In this document: piece by piece, positions 35,250 to 48,226 of the stretch
How positions within the stretch are numbered: the first letter of the stretch is position 1
Layout: each line of letters opens with the position of its first letter
Assembly (NCBI GenBank): GCA_951828585.1
Contig: OX639991.1
Span: 4,322,001 to 4,386,000, forward strand
Origin: Longimicrobiales bacterium
Lineage (GTDB): Bacteria > Gemmatimonadota > Gemmatimonadetes > Longimicrobiales > Gaopeijiaceae
Length of the DNA: 64,000 nucleotides
Direction: 5' to 3'
Translations under genes and position numbers: made by a program
Notes under the pieces: model-generated
What the model was told of the DNA's origin: nothing
The model's input: only the letters and a program-made list of their open reading frames with translations
The model's database searches: none

Positions 35250-37267
35250 ATGAGGAACTCGACGGTCGCCGTCATCGGTGCCGCCATCGGAACGGCGGGC
35301 GCGCACGCGCTCGAACTGCCGTTCCCCGGCCCCGGCGACAACCTCTACCTTGACCTGATCGCCCACAACGATCCGGGCATCCACGCCGCCATCCGCCTCT
35401 GGTACTACGCCGCGCCCGGCGTCGCGGTCATCCTCGCGGGCGCGCTCGTCCTCTCGGTCTGGCGGGTCTGGTTGCAACCCCTCTTCAGGTTCCGGCGCCG
35501 GAGCAAGCTGCCCAAGTGGCCCACCTCGCCGAACGACGACGCGCCCTCGCTGGTGATCGGCGAGACGCACCATCCGACCGTGCCGCGCGAGAGCGAGCGG
35601 CCCTCGTGGCTCGTCGTCCCCGAAAAGGGGCTCTACACCGGCCTGCTCGTCGCCGGGGCCGTCGGCACCGGCAAGACCACGGCCTGCATGTACCCGTTCG
35701 CCAAGCAGCTTCTCTCCTGGCGGGCGGACGATCCCCGCAAGCGCGCGGGCGCGCTCGTGTTCGAAGTCAAGGGAGACTTCTGCCATCAGGTGAGGACCAT
35801 CCTTGGCGAGGCCGGACGAGAGGAGGACTACCTCGAAATCGGGCTCGGCGGCTCGTGGCAGTGGAACCCGCTGGACGATCCGCTCCTCGACTCCTACTCG
35901 GCGGCCTACGGCGTCGCGTCGCTCATCAACCAGCTATTCGGCAAGAGTAGGGAACCGTTCTGGCAACAGGCGTACACGAACCTCGTGCGGTGGATCATCG
36001 AGGTGCATCGCCTCCTGCCGGGCGGCTGGGTCACGCTCCGGGACATCTACCGCTGCACCGTGGACGCGGAACTCCTCGGGCGGAGGATCGGCGAGGCGCG
36101 GGAACTCGCGGACCGGCTCCGTCCGCTCCGCGCCGTCATCTCCCGCGAGGATATGATCGCCCACCCGCAGGCGCTGGAGGAGTGGGCGTGGGAGCGCGTG
36201 CCCGGCACCGGCAACGTTGGGTGCTCGACCCGGAACTGGGATCGCGCCTCGACGAACTTGGCGTCGCCTACGCGACCGAAGAAGCCGGCGGAGGCGCGGG
36301 CCGGGAGATCGCCGAACAGGTCGAGGCCATCGAGCGGTGGTACTCCCATGACTGGATGGCGTTGGACGCCAAGCTCCGCACCTCAATCGTCGAGGGCATC
36401 AGCGTCTTCCTCTCGCTCTTCGACCTGCCGGAAGTCGCGGGCGTGTCTTGCCCGCCGCCACCCACCGAGACTCCGTCCGCCGGGAGCAACGAAACCAATG
36501 GCCACAGCCATCCCCTGCCGAGTTTGCGCCGGAAGCTGCCGCCGCTCGCGCAGCTGATCGACGAAGGCAAGGTCCTCGCCCTGAACATGCCCGCCGGAGC
36601 GAACCCCGCCCTTGCCCGCGCCATCGGCGTGCTGCTCAAGAACGCCTGGATGCAGGCGCTGCTCCGGCGTCCGGCCGAGGCCGCCCGCCGTCCCGACCGC
36701 TACATGCGGCCCGCGGTGTTCATCTGCGATGAGTACCAAGCGTTTGCCACGGTCGGGCAGGACGATCCGTCGGGCGACGAGAAGGCGTTCGCACTCACGC
36801 GCCAGTGCCGCTGCATCCCGATCGTCGCCACGCAGTCGATCTCCTCGCTCCGCTCCGTGCTGCCCTCGGGCGAGGCGTGGCGCACGCTCGTCCAGACGCT
36901 CCGCACCCGGATCTTCCTGTCGTTGTCCGACGAGGCGTCGGCCCGGATCGCGTCGGAGATGTGCGGCTCCGTCATGAAGACGCGGGCCTCCTACACGTTC
37001 ACCGAAACCACGGGCAGGCCCGAGTTCTCGCTGCTCTCCGGCCGCGCCGGAGGGGGACGGGGCACCATCGGCGCGAGCAAGTCGTTCCGCCAGCAGAGGG
37101 AGCCGGTGTTCACGCCGCGCGAGTTTGGGCTGCTCGCCAACTACCAAGCCATCTGCCTTCCGTACGACGGGGTCAAGTCGCTTTCGGCCCGGCGCGTCTA
37201 CCTGAAGCCGCACTACCTGCCGAGGGAGACGGGCTACTGGCGGCTCCGCGAGAAGGGGCGGATATGA
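35250..37267 (+). pseudogene. Second VirD4/TraD-type coupling protein, frameshifted
   Basis: Start ATG at 35250 with GGGAAGGGG about 9 nt upstream. The first frame has two transmembrane helices, AGAVGTGKTTACM (Walker A), VFEVKGDFCHQVR and QWNPLDDPLLDSYS. It loses coherence at ~36210, where the frame two bases over takes up WVLDPELGSRLDELG and runs to 37267 through VFICDEYQAFATVG (Walker B) and the same C-terminal blocks as the T4CP at 21027-23183. One base is missing or extra at about 36205-36220. It is clearly paralogous to, but well diverged from, the other T4CP, so the two came from separate elements. Confidence 0.8.
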
Positions 37268-37368
37268 AGCGCGCGGCACGAGCCGATCAAGCGACTGGCG
37301 GACAAGCCGCTTCCTCGCGAGCTTTCGGACAGGCGGATCGTGCAGTCCATCTTCGGAGGAATCGAACG

Positions 37369-38528
37369 ATGGCACGCACGAAACGAGGCCGGCGCAGTTA
37401 CAGCGCCGGAGAATGGGGCCGGAACCGGGTCCGGGTCTTTCCGGATCCGAAGACCGGCCTGCTTCAGATCGAGTGGCGGGAGAACGGGCGCAGGCTGAGC
37501 CGGTCGCTGAAACACCGCGATTGGACTCGCGCGAAACGGCAGGCGGATGAAGCCGCCGCAGGCTTTGCGATGTACGAGCCCAACGGCAAGGCCGAAGCCG
37601 AGCCCGAGCCGCTCACGCTGGGAAGGCTTTTTGAAATCTACGGTGAAGAGGTGACGCCCACCAAGGGCGAGAGGACCCGGCGGCGCGACAGGGTCGCGGC
37701 GAAAATGTTCCTCGACTTCTTCGGCAGGGACCGGAGGCCCGAAACGCTATCGCAGCGCGATTGGGACCGGTTCATCCAAGCACGGAGAGCGGGCAGGCCG
37801 GACGCTCGGGCCAGCCCGTCGGCAACCGAACCATCGCATGGGACCTGACGTTCCTGATGACGGTGCTCAACTGGGCCGCGAGGTCGCGGGACGAGGAGGG
37901 GAATCTCCTCCTCGACTCCAACCCGCTGAAGGGCCTCAAAAAGCCCAGGGAGAAGAACCCCAACCGGGTCGTTCTCACCGGGGACGAGTACCGGGCGATG
38001 CTCGGGGTCTCCCGGCAGGTCGGGTGGCGGTTCCACGTCGCGCTCGTGCTCGCGCACGAGACGGGGCACCGTATCGGTGCCATCCGCAAGCTCACGTGGC
38101 CGGACATCGACTTCGAGGGCAAGACCATCCGATGGCGCGCGGAGCACGAGAAAACGGGTTACGAACACATCACGCCCTTGACCTCCGAGGCGCTCGCCGC
38201 CTTGGAGGAGGCGCGGGGGATGGGCCGGGGGAAGAAGAACGGCCCGGTGCTGCCTTCGTCGAGGGATGCCACGAGATGCACGAACCGCGTTTCCGCCTTT
38301 CTGTGGTGGAAGAAGGCGCAGACCCTCGCGGGACTGGAGCCGAAGCCGGGCCGGGGTTGGCACTCGTTGCGGCGGAAGTTCGCGACGGACCTGATGGAGC
38401 TTCCGCTCAAGGTGCTGTGTGAGCTTGGTGGATGGAAGAGCCCGCAGACGGTGCTCCGCTGCTATCAGCAGGCCGACGCTGGACAGCTTCGGACGGCGTT
38501 GGAAAGCCGCCCGAGGGATCGCACCTGA
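37369..38528 (+). pseudogene. Tyrosine recombinase/integrase, frameshifted
   Basis: ATG at 37369 with CGGAGG 9 nt upstream. N-terminal basic AP2-like/SAM-like region (GRNRVRVFPDPKTGLLQIEW, then LTLGRLFEIYGEEV) in one frame to ~37800; the catalytic domain continues in another frame to 38528. It shows Arg in HETGHRIGAIRKLTW, HSLRRKFATDL (H-x-x-R) and the Tyr in GWKSPQTVLRCYQQAD. A one-base indel lies at 37795-37810. It would integrate and excise the element; attachment sites are not evident. It lies 100 bp after the T4CP gene and is convergent with AlpA. Confidence 0.8.
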
Positions 38529-38920
38529 GATCCCAATCGGAGGGAGTCATTCGGAGGGAATCGAGCCGCAGAATCCCGTAAACTCAGAAAACACAGGAAG
38601 ATGCGAATCTGCGTTAGTGTGCAGGGTAGGCTGGCTTGCTTGACCGACCAAGGCGCGGCCGACACGCTGTCTCGAGACCGCTTCGAGCACGCTGCCTCAT
38701 CGAACCGGCTCTCGGCGATGCGCTCGCGGACCCATTCGTCCACCTCGGCTTCGATCCAGCCCACGGCGCGCGCGCCCAGCGGGACAGGCCGGGGGAAACT
38801 CCCGTTGGCCAGCCGCACATAGATGGTGCTCCGCGACAGGCCGGTGCGCTCCAACACCTCCGGCAGCCGCAGGAACCGCGTCGGCGGTTTCGCCCTCTGT
38901 TCTCTCGGGTTCTCGGTCAT
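38465..38920 (-). CDS. AlpA-family excisionase/regulator
   Basis: ATG at 38918-38920 preceded by a very strong AGGAGGAGGA. Residues ~15-72 are a MerR-like HTH of the AlpA/Xis type: FLRLPEVLERTGLSRSTIYV, then SFPRPVPLGARAVGWIEAEV and DEWVRERI. AlpA proteins control integrase expression and excision of P4-like prophages and ICEs. The open frame runs on for ~75 residues without a recognisable domain and overlaps the end of the integrase gene by 64 bp. Typical AlpA proteins end near residue 75, so the tail may be an artefact of a lost stop. Confidence 0.75.
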   Translation of the reverse strand: MTENPREQRAKPPTRFLRLPEVLERTGLSRSTIYVRLANGSFPRPVPLGARAVGWIEAEVDEWVRERIAESRFDEAACSKRSRDSVSAAPWSVKQASLPCTLTQIRIFLCFLSLRDSAARFPPNDSLRLGSQVRSLGRLSNAVRSCPASAC

Positions 38921-40348: not shown

Positions 40349-40993
40349 ATGAACAAGGTGCTGTTTGGTTTCGTCGCACTCATGGGCACAGCCTTTGGGG
40401 CGGTGCCGCAATTCAAAGCTGATTCGCCCCCGGATGCGTCGCCAGGCGTTCCAGAGTGTGAGTTGGCGAAGCAATGGGTCGCGGATAACCTGGACGCCCT
40501 GCCGACAACGCTCGATGCTTTCAGCGAGCACTCCATCACCTTCCGCCGGACCATCTACAGCGCGCTCGATACCGATGTCCGGATATCGCTTTGGCGGGAG
40601 CACCTCGCTGGCGTGGCCCACGAGGTCGAGTCGCCCCATCAGCGTCTCTTCCTGAGTGAGGTATCGCGCGATCTCAATCGTTATGTGCAGAGCACCACGC
40701 CACGCTTTGAAATCGAGGCGCTGGGGGAGAAGGCGGTGGCGGTTCTCGGGAGAGACCTAACTCACCGGGCCCTGGCAGCACTCGGCCCGGACCCCGAGTC
40801 AACAGAGGTGGGGAGTTTGCCACCGGACCCGGACTGCTATTGTAGCACTGAGAGTGACTGGTGCAATGCTTGGCGTTTGCCTTGGCAGCCCAAGAGTCAT
40901 TGCGTTCTGGGTTCGTGCGAAGAGCTCGACGGCTGCGGCTTGTTCCTGCAATTCCGATGTGATGGCACTTGCCACAGGATTGTGGCTCAGTAG
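40349..40993 (+). CDS. Fulvocin C-like bacteriocin precursor
   Basis: 214 residues, ATG at 40349 with CGGAGG 7 nt upstream. Signal peptide at about 1-18. A helical middle region WVADNLDALPTTLDAFSEHS, then RRTIYSALDTDVRISLWREH, resembles the propeptide of fulvocin C-related bacteriocin proteins. The C-terminal ~52 residues carry eight cysteines (163, 165, 172, 185, 190, 196, 204, 208) in a CxCST-SDxC ... GCG ... C pattern like the mature peptide fulvocin C of Myxococcus fulvus, known to have four disulfides. Proteolytic release of the Cys-rich C-terminus is inferred. First gene of an operon with a propeller lipoprotein and an ABC transporter. Confidence 0.8.
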   Translation: MNKVLFGFVALMGTAFGAVPQFKADSPPDASPGVPECELAKQWVADNLDALPTTLDAFSEHSITFRRTIYSALDTDVRISLWREHLAGVAHEVESPHQRLFLSEVSRDLNRYVQSTTPRFEIEALGEKAVAVLGRDLTHRALAALGPDPESTEVGSLPPDPDCYCSTESDWCNAWRLPWQPKSHCVLGSCEELDGCGLFLQFRCDGTCHRIVAQ

Positions 40994-41395
40994 CCAACGC
41001 ACTGGTGGGGAACAGGGGCCAATGGTCGGTGGATGGGCTCTCCCGTCTGCCGACCAAGGTCGTTTTCCTGCCGGTTCAGGTAGTCACTTGGTCGTGCCGG
41101 AGGAGGAAACTCGCGGTGATTGTGAGGGGGAAGGAAGGCGGCGCGGCTGATGACGATCGGGGGGAACCGAATTGATCACCACCTTGGGCATTCCACATCG
41201 TGGAACAGGTGCCGGAGTAGGGCGCTTCGCAACTGACGACGGCGATTCCTGTGGGTCCGGGGATCCCAAAGGGGGCACGCGCTGGCCGGTGAGCAAGCAG
41301 GCACGGGTGGCATGGGGGCCAGACCAAGCCTTGCCGCTCCCGCCCAACCACGACGCGTGTGAACAGCTGCCCCAAGCGAGGAGAATGAACTTGAT
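40994..41395. other. Gap inside the bacteriocin operon
   Basis: About 400 bp between the precursor gene and the propeller gene. I see no supported ORF and no clear terminator, so cotranscription is possible but not shown. GAGGAG at about 41379-41384 is the probable ribosome binding site for the next gene. Confidence 0.4.
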
Positions 41396-42406
41396 ATGAG
41401 CATGATTCTGAGCGTAGTCGGTGTGACTCAATTGTGTGCCGGGTGTACCGTGGCGTTCGAACCCTCGGATACGCTCGGCGGGAGAGACGACCCGGCAGGT
41501 CCAGGAGTTGTCGCGGAAGTTCTGAAGACGGGCGATGGTGGATACCTCATGAGTTCCGATCTTCTCGGTGGCGTAGTGGTCGTCTACGACTCGGAGGGGC
41601 GCTTCCAGCGGGAGTTGACCCGTGAGGGTGACGGGCCGGGCGAGCTACGCGGGTTTCCGGAGTTCGCCATGGGTCCTGGAGGCATCCTGGTTCACGAACA
41701 GTTCGCGCCCTCGCTGCATTTGTACTCAAGCGACCTCGATTTCATCAGGACCTTCCGCGTTCCTGGGGTTCCCGGCTCGGTCCAGCCGGATCCGGTGACC
41801 GGGGGTTGGCTGGTCAGTTACATGGGAGCCGGCGACGGCTCCGAAGCGGGGATCCACCTTCTCGATCAGCGCGGGGAAGTGGTGCGGACAATGCCGGTCG
41901 GCGAGGAGTCTTCCAGTTTGAGCCTTATGGCAGGGGATGCGATCCGCGGCACGGACGGCAGGATCTGGATCGCCTCGATGCTGGGGGTGGTTGAGGTGTT
42001 CGACGAGAACCTCGAACTCCTGGGCTCCCTGGAACTGCAACTTCCCGGGCTCGCCGAGTGGAGCCCTGCCACCGGGCCCGCTGCTCCGCCAGCTATGGTA
42101 CTCGGCATGCGACCGGCGCCCGATGGATCGGGAGTCTGGGTCTTTGCGTTCGCGCCGGTCATCGACCCCGCAGAGAAACGGCGCTCACAGGGCCCCCGAC
42201 CACCGGTGGAGGAGGAGTTTGATACTTTCGTCTACTCACTTCGCCTTGACCCGAGCGGCCTGACACTGGTGGGAACGGATCAGCTGGACACCTTGGTGCG
42301 TCCGTTGGGTGACGGAGATCTTGCCTACGACCTGGTCGAAACGCCGGACGGAAACCGGAGGGTGCGGATAGGACGATTGCGCTTCGCAAGGACGGAAAGC
42401 CGATGA
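41396..42406 (+). CDS. Six-bladed beta-propeller lipoprotein of the bacteriocin operon
   Basis: 336 residues. The short hydrophobic N-terminus ends in LCAGC (lipobox Cys at 17). Blades are marked by GGVVVVYDSEGRFQRELTRE, the GDGPGELRGF loop typical of six-bladed propellers, GRIWIASMLGVVEVFD and GSGVWVFAF. The protein is probably outer-membrane anchored. Similar propellers accompany the Cys-rich protein at 13402-13993. In this operon it might bind the secreted peptide, confer immunity or assist maturation; none of these is shown. It starts ~400 bp after the precursor gene and is followed 34 bp later by the ABC ATPase. Confidence 0.75.
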   Translation: MSMILSVVGVTQLCAGCTVAFEPSDTLGGRDDPAGPGVVAEVLKTGDGGYLMSSDLLGGVVVVYDSEGRFQRELTREGDGPGELRGFPEFAMGPGGILVHEQFAPSLHLYSSDLDFIRTFRVPGVPGSVQPDPVTGGWLVSYMGAGDGSEAGIHLLDQRGEVVRTMPVGEESSSLSLMAGDAIRGTDGRIWIASMLGVVEVFDENLELLGSLELQLPGLAEWSPATGPAAPPAMVLGMRPAPDGSGVWVFAFAPVIDPAEKRRSQGPRPPVEEEFDTFVYSLRLDPSGLTLVGTDQLDTLVRPLGDGDLAYDLVETPDGNRRVRIGRLRFARTESR

Positions 42407-42440
42407 GCCGGGAAACGAGAAACAGCCGCCTCGCGCGCGC

Positions 42441-43154
42441 ATGAAGCACTCCCAACCGGCTCCGGTTCAGTTCCGCGACCTGTCGATCGGATACGGTCGG
42501 GACCAGCCGGTCATGACTGGACTCACCCTTGATGTTGTGCCCGGGGCCGTGCTCGCGATCATCGGCCCCAACGGATCAGGCAAGACTACTCTTTTTCGCA
42601 CCTTGCTGGGCATTCTGCCTCCCCTCAGTGGCGAGGTTTCGGTGTCCGGCCTGTCACCGACGGAGTATCGGCGCAGACACGGCATCGGTTACCTGGCTGA
42701 AGACACCGCCCTGCCCGACAAGTGGAGCTGTGAGGGGATCCTTACCCTGGCTGCGGCTGCCGCCGGGCCCGATGCGGATGTGCCCAACGCGGTGCGACTG
42801 GCAGGTGTCGACTACGCGACCGATATCTCCACCAACGCGCTCTCCAAGGGGATGAAGCGCCGCCTGGCACTGGCAGTGGCTCTCATGCGACCGACCAGAT
42901 TGCTCATCCTGGACGAACCCGAATCCGGACTTGATCCAGGCCAACGCCACCGGCTGCGTCGGCGCATCGATAGTATTCGCAGCAGCATGACGATCCTGGT
43001 GGCTAGTCACGATCTCGGTGAACTTGCGCTGATGAGCGACCATGTGCTGCTCATGGAGCACGGACGCGGCAGGCTCGTCGATCAGCCGGACGGGGGGTTC
43101 ACCCGCCATTTCCTCGAACAGGAATTCCTCCGGCTGGAAGGGGCGGTGTCATGA
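42441..43154 (+). CDS. ABC transporter ATP-binding protein (bacteriocin export or immunity)
   Basis: 237 residues with all ABC ATPase motifs: Walker A GPNGSGKTT at 42-50, Q-loop region YLAEDTALPD, a variant signature LSKGMKRRLALA, Walker B LLILDEPESGLD and the switch His in LVASHDLGEL. A short, DrrA-like stand-alone ATPase that pairs with the membrane subunit encoded next, whose start it overlaps by 4 bp (ATGA). The canonical LSGGQ is replaced by LSKGM. It lacks the peptidase C39 domain found in many bacteriocin exporters, so either another protease cleaves the leader or the pair provides self-protection. Confidence 0.9.
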   Translation: MKHSQPAPVQFRDLSIGYGRDQPVMTGLTLDVVPGAVLAIIGPNGSGKTTLFRTLLGILPPLSGEVSVSGLSPTEYRRRHGIGYLAEDTALPDKWSCEGILTLAAAAAGPDADVPNAVRLAGVDYATDISTNALSKGMKRRLALAVALMRPTRLLILDEPESGLDPGQRHRLRRRIDSIRSSMTILVASHDLGELALMSDHVLLMEHGRGRLVDQPDGGFTRHFLEQEFLRLEGAVS

Positions 43155-43939
43155 CCATCGTGCAAGCGACGCTCAAACACCTTCTCCGCCGCCGGTGGAA
43201 GCTCCCGCTGGCCGTATTCCTTTGCGGCGTAGTATTGGTGGGACTGCACCACGCTTTCGATGTGGACGGGATACGCGAGGTGTATTCCGAGGCGATTCGA
43301 CAAGATCCGGCTTCCAGGTCATCGGAGCAGGTTGAGGCGATCACCACGTGGGGGCGAATTGGGCCGATTCGCTCGACGCTCGACGCGGCCCTCCTCATAG
43401 GCCCTTTCCTGGTGGGATTGCTCATGCCAGGAGGCGTGGTCGCCAACGAGCGGCGCAGCGGTGCCATCATGCTCTGGGCCCAGCACCCGATGTCGCTGAC
43501 ACAGTTCTACATGCACCGCTATGTGGGTATCCAGATCGCGAACCTGGGCGGGCAGGCCCTGATCGGCGTTTCCTACCTCCTCTACCTGACATTGCCGCCG
43601 GATACCGCTACATCAATGGAGCGGTTGCCGGAATCCTGTCTCCACGGCCTGCTCGGCTGCGCGATCAGCTTCGCCGTTTCCGCCCTCGGTATCCGGCGGG
43701 CCTCCTTCCTGGTGTTTGCATACTACGTCGCATCGAGCATGACGAATTCCCCGAACCTGAGGGATGCATTGACGGCCGTGTCGGACGTGCTCCCCTTCCT
43801 GATCTTTCCAACAAGGATGATCAACGATTCCATGATGGGTTTCGGCGCCACCGGCCTCGTCCTGTATCACTTCCTCCTGTGGACAGCAGTGGCCTGGCTG
43901 GGGCTGCGTAAGCTCGAGCGAAGGCCGCTCAAGATTTAG
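43151..43939 (+). CDS. ABC-2-type transporter permease of the bacteriocin operon
   Basis: 262 residues with about six transmembrane helices (near 17-34, 75-97, 122-142, 155-178, 183-200 and 235-253). GGVVANERRSGAIMLWAQHP in the second loop is characteristic of ABC-2-type permeases and contacts the ATPase. The gene overlaps the ATPase gene by 4 bp. It ends 130 bp before the IS630 element; no clear terminator is seen. Together with the ATPase it forms a transporter for export of, or resistance to, the fulvocin-like peptide (inference from the operon). Confidence 0.8.
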   Translation: MTIVQATLKHLLRRRWKLPLAVFLCGVVLVGLHHAFDVDGIREVYSEAIRQDPASRSSEQVEAITTWGRIGPIRSTLDAALLIGPFLVGLLMPGGVVANERRSGAIMLWAQHPMSLTQFYMHRYVGIQIANLGGQALIGVSYLLYLTLPPDTATSMERLPESCLHGLLGCAISFAVSALGIRRASFLVFAYYVASSMTNSPNLRDALTAVSDVLPFLIFPTRMINDSMMGFGATGLVLYHFLLWTAVAWLGLRKLERRPLKI

Positions 43940-44165
43940 TTGGTTGGCCCGGCTATCACGGCGGCTTGGGGGCGGGGGTGACGTGAGGCGGAAAAGGTCG
44001 GCAGCCCCACCTCCAGCGGCTCCCACCCGATCCCTTCGTATTTCCCGCCTGTTGGTGCGACATTGTCGCTAGTGTGATGTATCATAAATTCTTGCGCAGT
44101 GAATGGTCCTGTGGTATCCTTCTCCCGTAGCCCTTCATGGAACCTCAATGGGAGAATGCGACGTC

Positions 44166-44726
44166 ATGGCGAATCACCACACGCGAGCGGTCCCGGAGAT
44201 CGACGACGGACAACGGGAAGAGCTGGAACGCTGGCTCCGGCGGTCCAAGACCGGACAGGCCCTGGCGCTGCGCGCCCGGATCGTACTGGCGTCGGCCGGG
44301 GGAGAGAGCGACGTGGGCGTGGCGGCCCGGCTGGGCACGACGCGCGAGACGGTGGGCAAGTGGCGCCGGCGGTTCATCGAGAAGGGATGCGACGGCCTTC
44401 TGGACGAACCGAGGCCGGGCGCCCCGCGCACGGTCAGCGACGCGGACGTTGAACGGGTGGTGACGATGACGCTCGAGACGATGCCGCGGGACGCCACGCA
44501 GTGGAGTACGCGCTCGATGGCGAAGGCGTGCGGCATGAGTTCCGCGACGGTGAACCGGATCTGGCGGGCCTTCGGCCTGCAGCCGCACCGCATGGAGACC
44601 TTCAAGCTTTCGACCGACCCGCTGTTCATCGAAAAGGTGCGCGACGTCGTGGGGCTCTACATGGCCCCGCCGGAGCGGGCGGTCGTGCTCTGCGTGGACG
44701 AGAAGTCGCAGATCCAGGCGCTCGAC
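44166..44726 (+). pseudogene. IS630 transposase, 5' part
   Basis: Begins MANHHTRAVPEIDDGQREEL (ATG 44166) and carries the HTH (VGVAARLGTTRETVGKWRRR), then the first catalytic Asp in LCVDEKSQIQALD, where the IS21 element is inserted at CTCGAC. The rest of the gene resumes at 47693. Joining the two restores CVDEKSQIQALDRTQPMLP, the usual IS630 sequence. Confidence 0.9.
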
Positions 44727-45174
44727 TCCGTATTCCGCCGATGCCGATCACCGATTCCGCCATGCCGATCACCGATTCCGGGGCATGCCGATCACCTTGG
44801 AGGAGAGCGGAGGTCCATAGGGGCGCTGGGGTCGGGTTACGGGTTTGAAGTTTAGGGGTTGGAGGGGGTAGTCGTCGAGTGTGAAGGGACCGTTGGCAGT
44901 GTGTTGCTGGGACGGCCGGCGGGCCGGTTTTTCCGGAGGGGTGTAGGTAGGGCGAAGGTCTTCGGACGGCCTCTACGGCGCTCTGGAGAGCGGTTTTGCG
45001 AGGGAACCGGGCCATTTGTCCCGGATTGGGGGGTGCGGACGGATCCGGGCCGGCCGCAACGGAACGCCCGGACGGCCGCACGGCCCGCTCAGAGCTGTCT
45101 TTCCGTCTTTTCACCCCCGATCGCAGGGAGAGACGCGCTTCCAGAGGCATGCTTGAGCCCGGTCTCTCGGCGGA

Positions 45175-45939
45175 TCAGGCGTCGCCGGGGACGGCGTCGG
45201 CTTCCTTCGTCGAGTCGTAGAGCCTTCTCATCGATCCGCCCTTGAGGGCGATGCGGTGCGCGTTGTTGAGCAGTCTGTCGAGGATGGCGTCGCCGAAGGT
45301 GGGATCGCCGACGACCTCGTGCCAGTGCTCGACGGGGACCTGGCTGGCCAGCAGCGTGCCGCGGCGGGCGTAGCGGTCGTCGAGGACCTCGAGGAGGTCG
45401 TGCCGTCCCTGTCCCGAGAGCGAAGCGAGCCCCCAGTCGTCGAGGACGAGGAGCCACGTCCGGGCGAGCCTCTGGATGACCTTGGGATACGACCCGTCGC
45501 CGCGGGCGAGGGTGAGTTCGTCAAGCAGGCGGGAGACGCGGTAGTAGCGCGTCGAGATTCCGGCGCGGCAGGCCTGGTGGCCCAGCGCGCACGCCAAGTA
45601 GGATTTTCCCGAGCCCGTGGCACCGCTGACGAGCACGGTTTGGCCGTCCCGGATCCACTGCCCGGAGGCGAGGCGGAGCACGAGGGATTTGTCCAGTCCG
45701 CGAGGGGCCTTGAAGTTGATGTCTTCGATGGTCGCGTCGAGGTGGAGCTTGGCGTGGCCTTTCAGTCGCTGGTAGCGGCGCTGCTTCCGTTCGGTCTTCT
45801 CGCGTTCGAGGAGCAGGGAGAGGCGGTCCTCGAAGGACAGTTCGGCGATGTCGGGCATGGCGGCCTGTTCCTGGAAGGCCTCGGCCATGCCGGAGAGCCG
45901 GAGTTCGTGAAGCAGGTCGAGGGTGGGTTGGCGAAGCAT
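45175..45939 (-). CDS. istB: IS21 transposition ATPase IstB
   Basis: 254 residues, ATG at 45937-45939. AAA+ ATPase related to DnaC: N-terminal LLHELRLSGMAEAFQEQAA, Walker A VSGATGSGKSYLA, Walker B WLLVLDDWGLASL and sensor-like HRIALKGGSMR at the end. IstB assembles on target DNA and activates IstA for strand transfer. It starts 5 bp after the istA stop. Confidence 0.93.
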   Translation of the reverse strand: MLRQPTLDLLHELRLSGMAEAFQEQAAMPDIAELSFEDRLSLLLEREKTERKQRRYQRLKGHAKLHLDATIEDINFKAPRGLDKSLVLRLASGQWIRDGQTVLVSGATGSGKSYLACALGHQACRAGISTRYYRVSRLLDELTLARGDGSYPKVIQRLARTWLLVLDDWGLASLSGQGRHDLLEVLDDRYARRGTLLASQVPVEHWHEVVGDPTFGDAILDRLLNNAHRIALKGGSMRRLYDSTKEADAVPGDA

Positions 45940-45944
45940 GATGG

Positions 45945-47504
45945 TCAGGACTCCTTTCCATTCTGGGGAGTGTAGTACCCGGGCCCGCGGATGTTGGCGT
46001 GGTGGCCGGGGAGGGAGAGCGTGTACTGCTGGTCGTCGGCCTGGTCGAGGCCGGTCGCGAGGATGGACTTGACGGACTTGTAGCTCAGCGTGCCGATGTC
46101 CAGCGCGTGGCGGCAGGCGGCCTCCAGGCGCTCGGCGCCGTAGGCCCGCAGCAGTGCCTTGAGCCCGAGGCAGCTGCGGTAGCCCTGTTCGGGGTGGGGC
46201 CGGCTGTCGAGGAGTTGTTCGACGAACGCGGCCGTGTGCGATCCGGTCCTCTGTCCCCAGGCGATCAGTCGGGACGGCGTCCAACCCGCATGGGCGCGGT
46301 GCGAGGCGGGCATGTGCGACGGTTCGGTCGCGTATCCGCCCTTCCTGTGGACCCGTAGGTGCGCGGCCACCCGGCGGTACTTGTGGAAGATCTCGACGGT
46401 CTGGGCCGTGAGCCGAACGTCGACCTCGCAGCGGCCCAGCGGGTGGGGGACGCTGTAGAGCGCGTGCTCGACCTGGATGTGGTAGTCGATGTTGACCCGC
46501 GCCTTGCGCCACTCCGCGTATTCGTAGCGCTCGGCCGGAAGCGGCTTGAGCGCCGGCCGGTCGAGATCCTCGAACCAGCTGCGGCGGCTCCCATCGGTCT
46601 TGTCGAACGGCCGCTCGTTCAGCGCGGCCAGCAGCGGCGCGATGGCGTCGCGGAGTTCGCCGAGCGAGAAGAACGTATGGTTGCGCAGCGGCGCCATGAC
46701 CCAGCGCTCGACGTGTTGGACTGCGGTTTCCGCCTTGGCTTTGTCCCGAGGTGCCCGGGGCCGCGCCGGCAGCACTGCGGTTCCGTAGTGGGTGGCCAGT
46801 TCCTGGTACGTCGGGTTCAAGTCCGGCTCGTAGCGGCTGGCCTTGTGGACCGCGGCCTTCTCGTTGTCCGGGATCACGAGTTCGGGCACCCCGCCCCAAA
46901 ATTCGAACATCCGGACATGCGACATCGTCCAGTCCGGCAGGGACCGGCTCCGGGTCACGTCCACGAAGGTGTAGTTCGACGCGCCGAGGACACCGACGAA
47001 GACCATGACGTCCCGCGCCTCGCCGGTCTTCCGGTCCACGACTTCGAACTTCGGGCCCGCGTAGTCCACGAACGCCTTTTCGCCCGCCCGGTACACCTGC
47101 CGCATGACCACGTCGATCCGTCCCCGCCACGCCCTGTAGCGCTCGCAGAACCAGCTGTACCCGTAGCCGTTCGGATGCGCCGCCCGGTACTCCAGCCACA
47201 ACAGCTGCAGCGTCACGCCCTTGTGGCGTTGAAGCTCCCGGTGAACCTGCTCCCAGTTCGGCTCCGGCCGGGGAACCCGCGACGGTGGCAGGGGCGGGAA
47301 CAGCGCCGCCTCAAGCGCGGCGTCGTCCAGCCCCTCCGGCAACGGCCAGGAGAAGCCCCCGGCGCTTGCCCGCCGCACGTAATCGCTCACCGTGCTGTTG
47401 GCGATGCCGAGCGATCTGGCGATCTCCCGGTGGCTGCGCCCGGCCTCGTACTTCAGACGCAGCACTTCTCGAATCTTCCGCATGGACAACCTCTTCTGTG
47501 ACAC
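45945..47504 (-). CDS. istA: IS21 transposase IstA
   Basis: 519 residues, ATG at 47502-47504. HTH near residues 20-45 (SHREIARSLGIANSTVSDYV), rve/DDE core with Asp in AFVDYAGPKF, Asp in LVIPDNEKAAV and Glu in KAKAETAVQHVERWV, then the C-terminal beta barrel (VEHALYSVPHPLG) and a helical tail that contacts IstB. Intact and adjacent to istB, so the element is potentially active. The copy at 7836-9491 keeps only the first ~390 residues. Confidence 0.93.
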   Translation of the reverse strand: MSQKRLSMRKIREVLRLKYEAGRSHREIARSLGIANSTVSDYVRRASAGGFSWPLPEGLDDAALEAALFPPLPPSRVPRPEPNWEQVHRELQRHKGVTLQLLWLEYRAAHPNGYGYSWFCERYRAWRGRIDVVMRQVYRAGEKAFVDYAGPKFEVVDRKTGEARDVMVFVGVLGASNYTFVDVTRSRSLPDWTMSHVRMFEFWGGVPELVIPDNEKAAVHKASRYEPDLNPTYQELATHYGTAVLPARPRAPRDKAKAETAVQHVERWVMAPLRNHTFFSLGELRDAIAPLLAALNERPFDKTDGSRRSWFEDLDRPALKPLPAERYEYAEWRKARVNIDYHIQVEHALYSVPHPLGRCEVDVRLTAQTVEIFHKYRRVAAHLRVHRKGGYATEPSHMPASHRAHAGWTPSRLIAWGQRTGSHTAAFVEQLLDSRPHPEQGYRSCLGLKALLRAYGAERLEAACRHALDIGTLSYKSVKSILATGLDQADDQQYTLSLPGHHANIRGPGYYTPQNGKES

Positions 47505-47692
47505 CCTCTTTCTCCTCGTCTCAAGGAACCTCTGGCGAGGATGGAAGAGGGTGTCGCTACAGCAGGTTCTCCAGCGCTCCTACTCGCTCACTCCAAGGTG
47601 ATCGGCATGCTCTGGAATCACTGATCGGCATACTCTGGAATCGGTGATCGGCATGAAATGGAATCACTGATCGGCATGGGCCGGAATCAGCA

Positions 47693-48226
47693 CTCGACCG
47701 CACCCAGCCGATGCTTCCGCTGCGTCCGGGGACGCCCGCCCGCCAGACCCACGACTACAAGCGCAACGGCACCACCTCGCTCTTCGCCGCCCTCGACATC
47801 GCCACCGGCGAGGTCATCGGAAAATGCTACCCGCGCCACCGGTCCGTCGAGTTCAGGAAGTTCCTCGCGGTCATCGAGAAGGCGGTGCCGAAGGAGATGG
47901 ATGTCCATCTGGTCCTCGACAACTACGGCACCCACAGGACCGCGATGATCCACAAGTGGCTTCTCAGACACCCCCGCTTCCACCTGCACTTCACCCCGAC
48001 CAGCGCGTCATGGCTCAACCAGATCGAACGCTGGTTCGCCGAAATCACGAACAAGCAGATCCGGCGCGGAAGCTACCGAAGCACCCACGAACTCGTGCAG
48101 GCCATCGAGGACTACCTGGCCGTCCACAACGAGGATCCGAAGCCCTTCGTCTGGACGAAGTCCGCGGACGACATCCTGGAATCCCTCAAGAGTTACTGCG
48201 AACGTATTACCGATACAGAACACTAG
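47693..48226 (+). pseudogene. IS630 transposase, 3' part
   Basis: Continues with THDYKRNGTTSLFAALDIAT, the second Asp in VHLVLDNYGTHRT and the Glu in SWLNQIERWFAEI, completing the DDE triad of IS630. The stop codon TAG uses the TA of the target site. Upstream part at 44166-44726; separated by the nested IS21. Confidence 0.9.

Follow-up and report, generated by a model that had tools for sequence, protein, structure and literature searches.

Introduction

Fulvocin C is a bacteriocin of Myxococcus fulvus (Hirsch 1977; Tsai and Hirsch 1981, both as cited in PMC8708641), and the fulvocins belong to the small number of ribosomal peptides from myxobacteria that have been characterised in part (PMC8708641). 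Fulvocin homologues are annotated by name only, and a literature search found activity data among family members for fulvocin C alone. In the sequence used here for all comparisons, which I take to be that of fulvocin C, the gaps between successive cysteines are 1,6,5,5,6,6,1. Members of the NCBIfam family NF033852, found on Streptomyces plasmids and elsewhere, have a leader and a core spread across the whole model, as does the precursor described below; unlike the present cluster, the annotated Streptomyces members lack an NHL-type propeller or ABC partner. Other peptide systems offer further comparisons. Double-glycine bacteriocins differ from this cluster in being exported by an ABC transporter with a peptidase C39 domain, and enzyme-modified RiPPs (lanthipeptide, rSAM) in having a modification enzyme encoded beside the precursor. 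LanFEG-like self-protection pairs resemble its transporter in combining a separate small ATPase with a membrane subunit, but they occur with lanthipeptide genes. The cluster represents a variant of the fulvocin C-related family that is uncommon and lineage-specific; the original prediction had described it correctly in part.

The locus and its surroundings

The window is the whole 64,000-nucleotide stretch of DNA that was analysed, taken from a complete host genome of 4.47 Mb that belongs to an uncultured-type member of the Gemmatimonadota. Four intact, co-directional ORFs lie on its forward strand where the original prediction had placed them: a fulvocin C-related prepropeptide of 214 residues (ORF1, 40349..40993), an NHL-like beta-propeller and putative lipoprotein of 336 residues (ORF2, 41396..42406), an ABC transporter ATPase of 237 residues (ORF3, 42441..43154) and a putative ABC permease of 262 residues (ORF4, 43151..43939), whose gene overlaps that of the ATPase by 4 bp. 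Their intactness does set them apart from their surroundings, as had been claimed, for mobile-element and broken genes are plentiful around them. The four genes had also been called an operon. The claim is weakened by a gap of 402 bp between precursor and propeller genes and by the terminator-like hairpin within it (41023..41056, forward strand), so that the four genes may not share a single transcript. The hairpin has a 15-pair stem and a T-rich tail and is suggestive only, three terminator-like sites having been found in the region against 2.9 expected by chance. The gap has no second copy elsewhere in the genome.

Upstream, positions 36221-38920 hold the remnants of an integrative element, namely a fragment of a TraG/TraD-type coupling protein, a tyrosine integrase and an AlpA-type regulator. 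On the other side, an IS21-type element (44741-47688; istA/istB-like genes at 45178-47504) with repeated end motifs of ~23 bp appears to be inserted into an IS630-type transposase gene, the halves of which lie at 44148-44852 and 47711-48223.

A fulvocin C-related precursor

ORF1 starts at an ATG with GGAGG upstream and matches NF033852 ("bacteriocin fulvocin C-related") over the whole model (E 8.4e-22; 78.6 bits against a curated cut-off of 35); Pfam has no model for it. The fulvocin C sequence used here matches this model too, at its C-terminal end (positions 108-148, E 1.1e-6); the match speaks for the identity of that sequence as well as for homology, and the family assignment made originally is upheld. 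As to the proposed layout of a signal peptide followed by a helical propeptide, residues 1-18 (40349..40402, forward strand) form a hydrophobic N-terminus, conserved among relatives and read by eye as a putative Sec signal peptide, and an AlphaFold2 model built with five sequences predicts helices at residues 36-145 (40454..40783, forward strand) with a pLDDT mostly of 70-90, in a region that also contains conserved columns. The signal region and the core have no resolved structure in this model. A Foldseek search of the leader fold against the PDB gave no match, and a sequence search of the PDB gave nothing for precursor or permease; a TrpR-like match from these sequence searches (E 0.09) was dismissed as chance.

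The putative mature peptide (residues 161-214; 40829..40990, forward strand) is delimited by its cysteine pattern and by comparison with fulvocin C, its start, or cleavage point, being placed by the N-terminus of the fulvocin C sequence used here. Its eight cysteines fall at residues 163-208, within the last 52 residues of the precursor. Like fulvocin C, the core is an eight-cysteine peptide that begins CxC-x6-C, and a CSTxSDxC motif is nearly common to the two. The original prediction held that the cysteines follow the fulvocin C spacing, which is true of their number, their order and the first two gaps of the series 1,6,12,4,5,7,3; the later gaps differ (12,4,5,7,3 against 5,5,6,6,1 in fulvocin C). 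With the cysteines held fixed, the alignment of the ORF1 core to the fulvocin C sequence scores better than shuffled sequences (p about 0.005), as do the cores of several relatives (p 0.0005-0.003).

A constant propeller neighbour within the genus

The AlphaFold2 model of ORF2 contains 23 strands (pLDDT 73.6), and its best Foldseek matches are NHL domains (E 2.3e-9, TM 0.45-0.59). The protein had been described as a six-bladed propeller lipoprotein. An NHL-like propeller fold is indeed predicted, similar to that of PF17170/NHL-type six-bladed propellers, but the match to the six-bladed model PF17170 (13.6 bits) falls below the gathering cut-off of 22.9, and ORF2 represents a distinct subfamily of the genus. 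The evidence for a lipoprotein consists of an LCAGC motif near the N-terminus, which is conserved as LCxGC in relatives and has no basic residue before it.

Propellers as such are common in this organism. The PF17170-type model has 149 matches in the host genome, from which I estimate that roughly one gene in six would have some propeller within 2 kb; thus a propeller nearby is weak evidence and only the specific subfamily carries weight. The ORF2 subfamily (at least 50% identity) has four copies in the genome, two of them beside precursors, and with four copies, a reach of 1 kb and 4.47 Mb of sequence I put chance adjacency at ~0.3% per locus. Both base rates are drawn from search tallies.

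Intact precursors are present in 4/23 genomes of the genus, in which the relatives are Gemmatimonadota MAGs. All five intact loci, namely the window, L010, L011 (genome G020), L014 (G015) and L015 (G021), touch a propeller of the ORF2 subfamily. L010 belongs to the host genome itself, where two further family members flank another propeller of this subfamily. Three remnant loci lie beside such a propeller as well: in G003 about the first 20 precursor codons are followed by unrelated sequence with stops near the contig end, in G103, from another family, the precursor is cut after ~29 codons and adjoins an IS3-type transposase fragment, and contig 37 of G015 keeps a 25-residue piece. The sequences thus show patchy presence with decay by insertion and truncation. 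Three of the five intact loci and two of the remnant ones have the ABC pair or its ATPase; none was seen in L010 or in L015, the latter being cut by a contig end.

These data bear on a competing explanation, in which a precursor gene of the fulvocin family stands on its own and merely shares its mobile island with an independent module of propeller and ABC genes, specific to the lineage. Integrase, coupling-protein, AlpA and IS genes surround the cluster, the host has its 149 propeller-model matches, and Streptomyces family members are solitary. Gene order also varies, from precursor-propeller-ABC in the window to ABC-propeller-precursor in L014 and precursor-ATPase-propeller-precursor in L011, the ATPase of which has a disrupted frame. 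Moreover, propeller-ABC pairs occur without a precursor in G005, G001 and G021 (contig 129). Against independence, every precursor locus of the genus, intact or decayed, touches the one propeller subfamily for which chance adjacency is so low, and precursor and propeller genes are just ~30-50 bp apart in L015 and L010. I therefore consider an independent module somewhat unlikely and favour a true precursor-propeller association. Most ORF2-subfamily propellers and several propeller-ABC pairs nevertheless have no precursor and must therefore serve functions independent of it.

When 23 subfamily propellers were placed in a tree, those without ABC genes or precursor clustered together (3 changes against 8.0 in shuffles, 0/500 as low), and the propeller-ABC-precursor module is largely one propeller clade, with exceptions. 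Some members of the sister clade adjoin quinohemoprotein amine dehydrogenase genes; these precursor-less propellers of the same subfamily are found in L045, L046, L048, L049, L050 and L055, and for L046 and L048 the gamma subunit (NF037958) and the radical SAM maturase (TIGR03906) were confirmed. A separate observation concerns the ABC-propeller module, which is 97.5% identical over 2.8 kb between L044 (3700-6750; G003, same genus) and L052 (450-3300; G103, another family of the class), indicating recent transfer or mis-binning.

Leader and core evolution

Leaders within the genus share 45-65% amino acid identity and cores 25-49%, with the exception of the precursor pair in G020 (L011). These two precursors flank the propeller and are identical at 541/544 nucleotides over a stretch that starts ~95 bp upstream and takes in the whole leader, including 146/149 leader codons. 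Their cores have 24 identical residues, of which 14/24 are encoded by identical codons; comparing the window with G020 gives the same rate (72/123). Since the leaders are near-identical and the cores have diverged as between species, leader and core appear to recombine separately. By these codon counts the core divergence is of long standing, and homogenisation or exchange of the leader is recent. A recent duplicate whose core then changed fast under selection was rejected as an explanation, because core synonymous sites have diverged as between species. The pattern is the one that gene conversion or core replacement produces, but a MAG artefact might give it too: the contig is 5.5 kb long with about 12x coverage, so an assembly chimera is possible.

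It is conceivable, though on balance unlikely, that the pattern reflects a leader-core exchange system, in which recombination would keep a conserved leader for export and folding uniform, and in which cores rich in cysteine would be swapped or diversified next to a propeller dedicated to them, much as in polymorphic toxins. Such a strategy, if true, has not been described for fulvocin-type peptides.

The transporter and a proposed function

ORF3 is a canonical ABC ATPase (PF00005, E 1.8e-24), with Walker A/B motifs and H-loop read in the sequence. Among the many ABC families that it resembles is TIGR03740 (score 107, cut-off 310). ORF4 has no Pfam or NCBIfam match, and comparison with ABC-2 type exporters likewise gave no family match; it is called a putative permease because it has several hydrophobic segments and is paired with the ATPase, which it also adjoins in propeller-ABC relatives. 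Pfam and NCBIfam profile searches found no peptidase C39 domain in either protein, and a scan of genes from 28 to 52 kb recognised no modification enzyme, the neighbours there being mobile-element genes. The originally claimed absence of both is thus borne out, and the transporter itself is an ATPase with a hydrophobic partner.

The cluster may well make and tolerate a secreted antibacterial peptide of the bacteriocin type; this is the most likely of the functions considered, and I hold it with moderate confidence. A bacteriocin activity is ascribed to the product because of the name of its family and its homology to fulvocin C. The best overall reading, about evenly balanced between right and wrong, is of a secreted antagonistic peptide, rich in disulfides, whose leader is conserved and whose core can be exchanged, together with a propeller partner and an ABC pump for self-protection. 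The 214-residue precursor would be exported by Sec, judging from its N-terminus, and the folded helical leader would stay with the core until the eight core cysteines had been joined by disulfides in the periplasm; that neither a C39 domain nor a modification enzyme is present agrees with a peptide that carries disulfides only. A protease would then free a fulvocin C-like peptide of ~50 residues. The ATPase-permease pair may clear this peptide from the producer membrane, self-protection being suggested because the pair has no C39 peptidase and is not needed to export a Sec substrate. In the weakest step, the propeller might bind precursor or target as a chaperone, receptor or immunity protein, its anchorage probably being outside the inner membrane. 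The elements of this reading that the genomes themselves bear out, at the level of sequence, are membership of the family, association with one propeller subfamily in the genus, patchy presence with decay, and separate evolution of leader and core.

Could the product instead act as a signal, bind metal or belong to the cell surface, and the propeller serve as its receptor or scaffold? The function of NF033852 rests on its name. Disulfide-rich secreted peptides serve many roles and propellers commonly bind ligands, both of which would suit such a product. A core more variable than its leader and a patchy presence speak against it, as does the match to the same NF033852 model of fulvocin C, itself a bacteriocin as cited in PMC8708641. 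I regard a non-antibacterial role as quite improbable and retain the antagonistic peptide as the working model. The cluster is compact, and its constant propeller, its candidate pump for self-protection and the signs that leader and core evolve separately offer a concrete way to test both the function of the family and how a producer survives.

Distribution outside the genus

NF033852-type matches were found in 13/395 genomes of the phylum, some of them weak or frameshifted. Most of the other Gemmatimonadota members have neither an ORF2-type propeller nor the ABC pair: G091 has no propeller, G106 and G290 have none as far as their contigs reach, and G139 and G265 have other propellers nearby that the base rate could explain. 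Annotated members on Streptomyces plasmids likewise have neither partner. Viral contigs yielded no relative. In a scan of genome contigs with the genus alignment, whose patterns are biased towards the genus and which therefore bears on its relatives and not on Bacteroidota or Myxococcota, the matches listed comprised three loci, all known already. The predicted co-occurrence of precursor, propeller and ABC pair consequently holds in part: the propeller link is found at 5/5 intact loci of the genus and at three remnant loci but is mostly absent beyond the genus. Similarity to fulvocin C, the other half of the prediction, holds, whereas the partners are missing around most homologues outside the genus, which indicates a lineage-specific arrangement and not a general fulvocin operon. 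A literature search found no paper that pairs fulvocin-type genes with propellers, and the claim to novelty, which is modest, concerns the partner genes and leader-core recombination.

Two distant loci have neighbours of other kinds. In G315 (L064, 4950-6780) a fulvocin-like gene and one for a glutamine cyclotransferase (PF05096, 1.4e-97) are divergently oriented, and on a Streptomyces anulatus plasmid (L068, 7620-12383) the fulvocin-like gene is convergent with one that encodes a WD40-repeat protein, a propeller of a different type.
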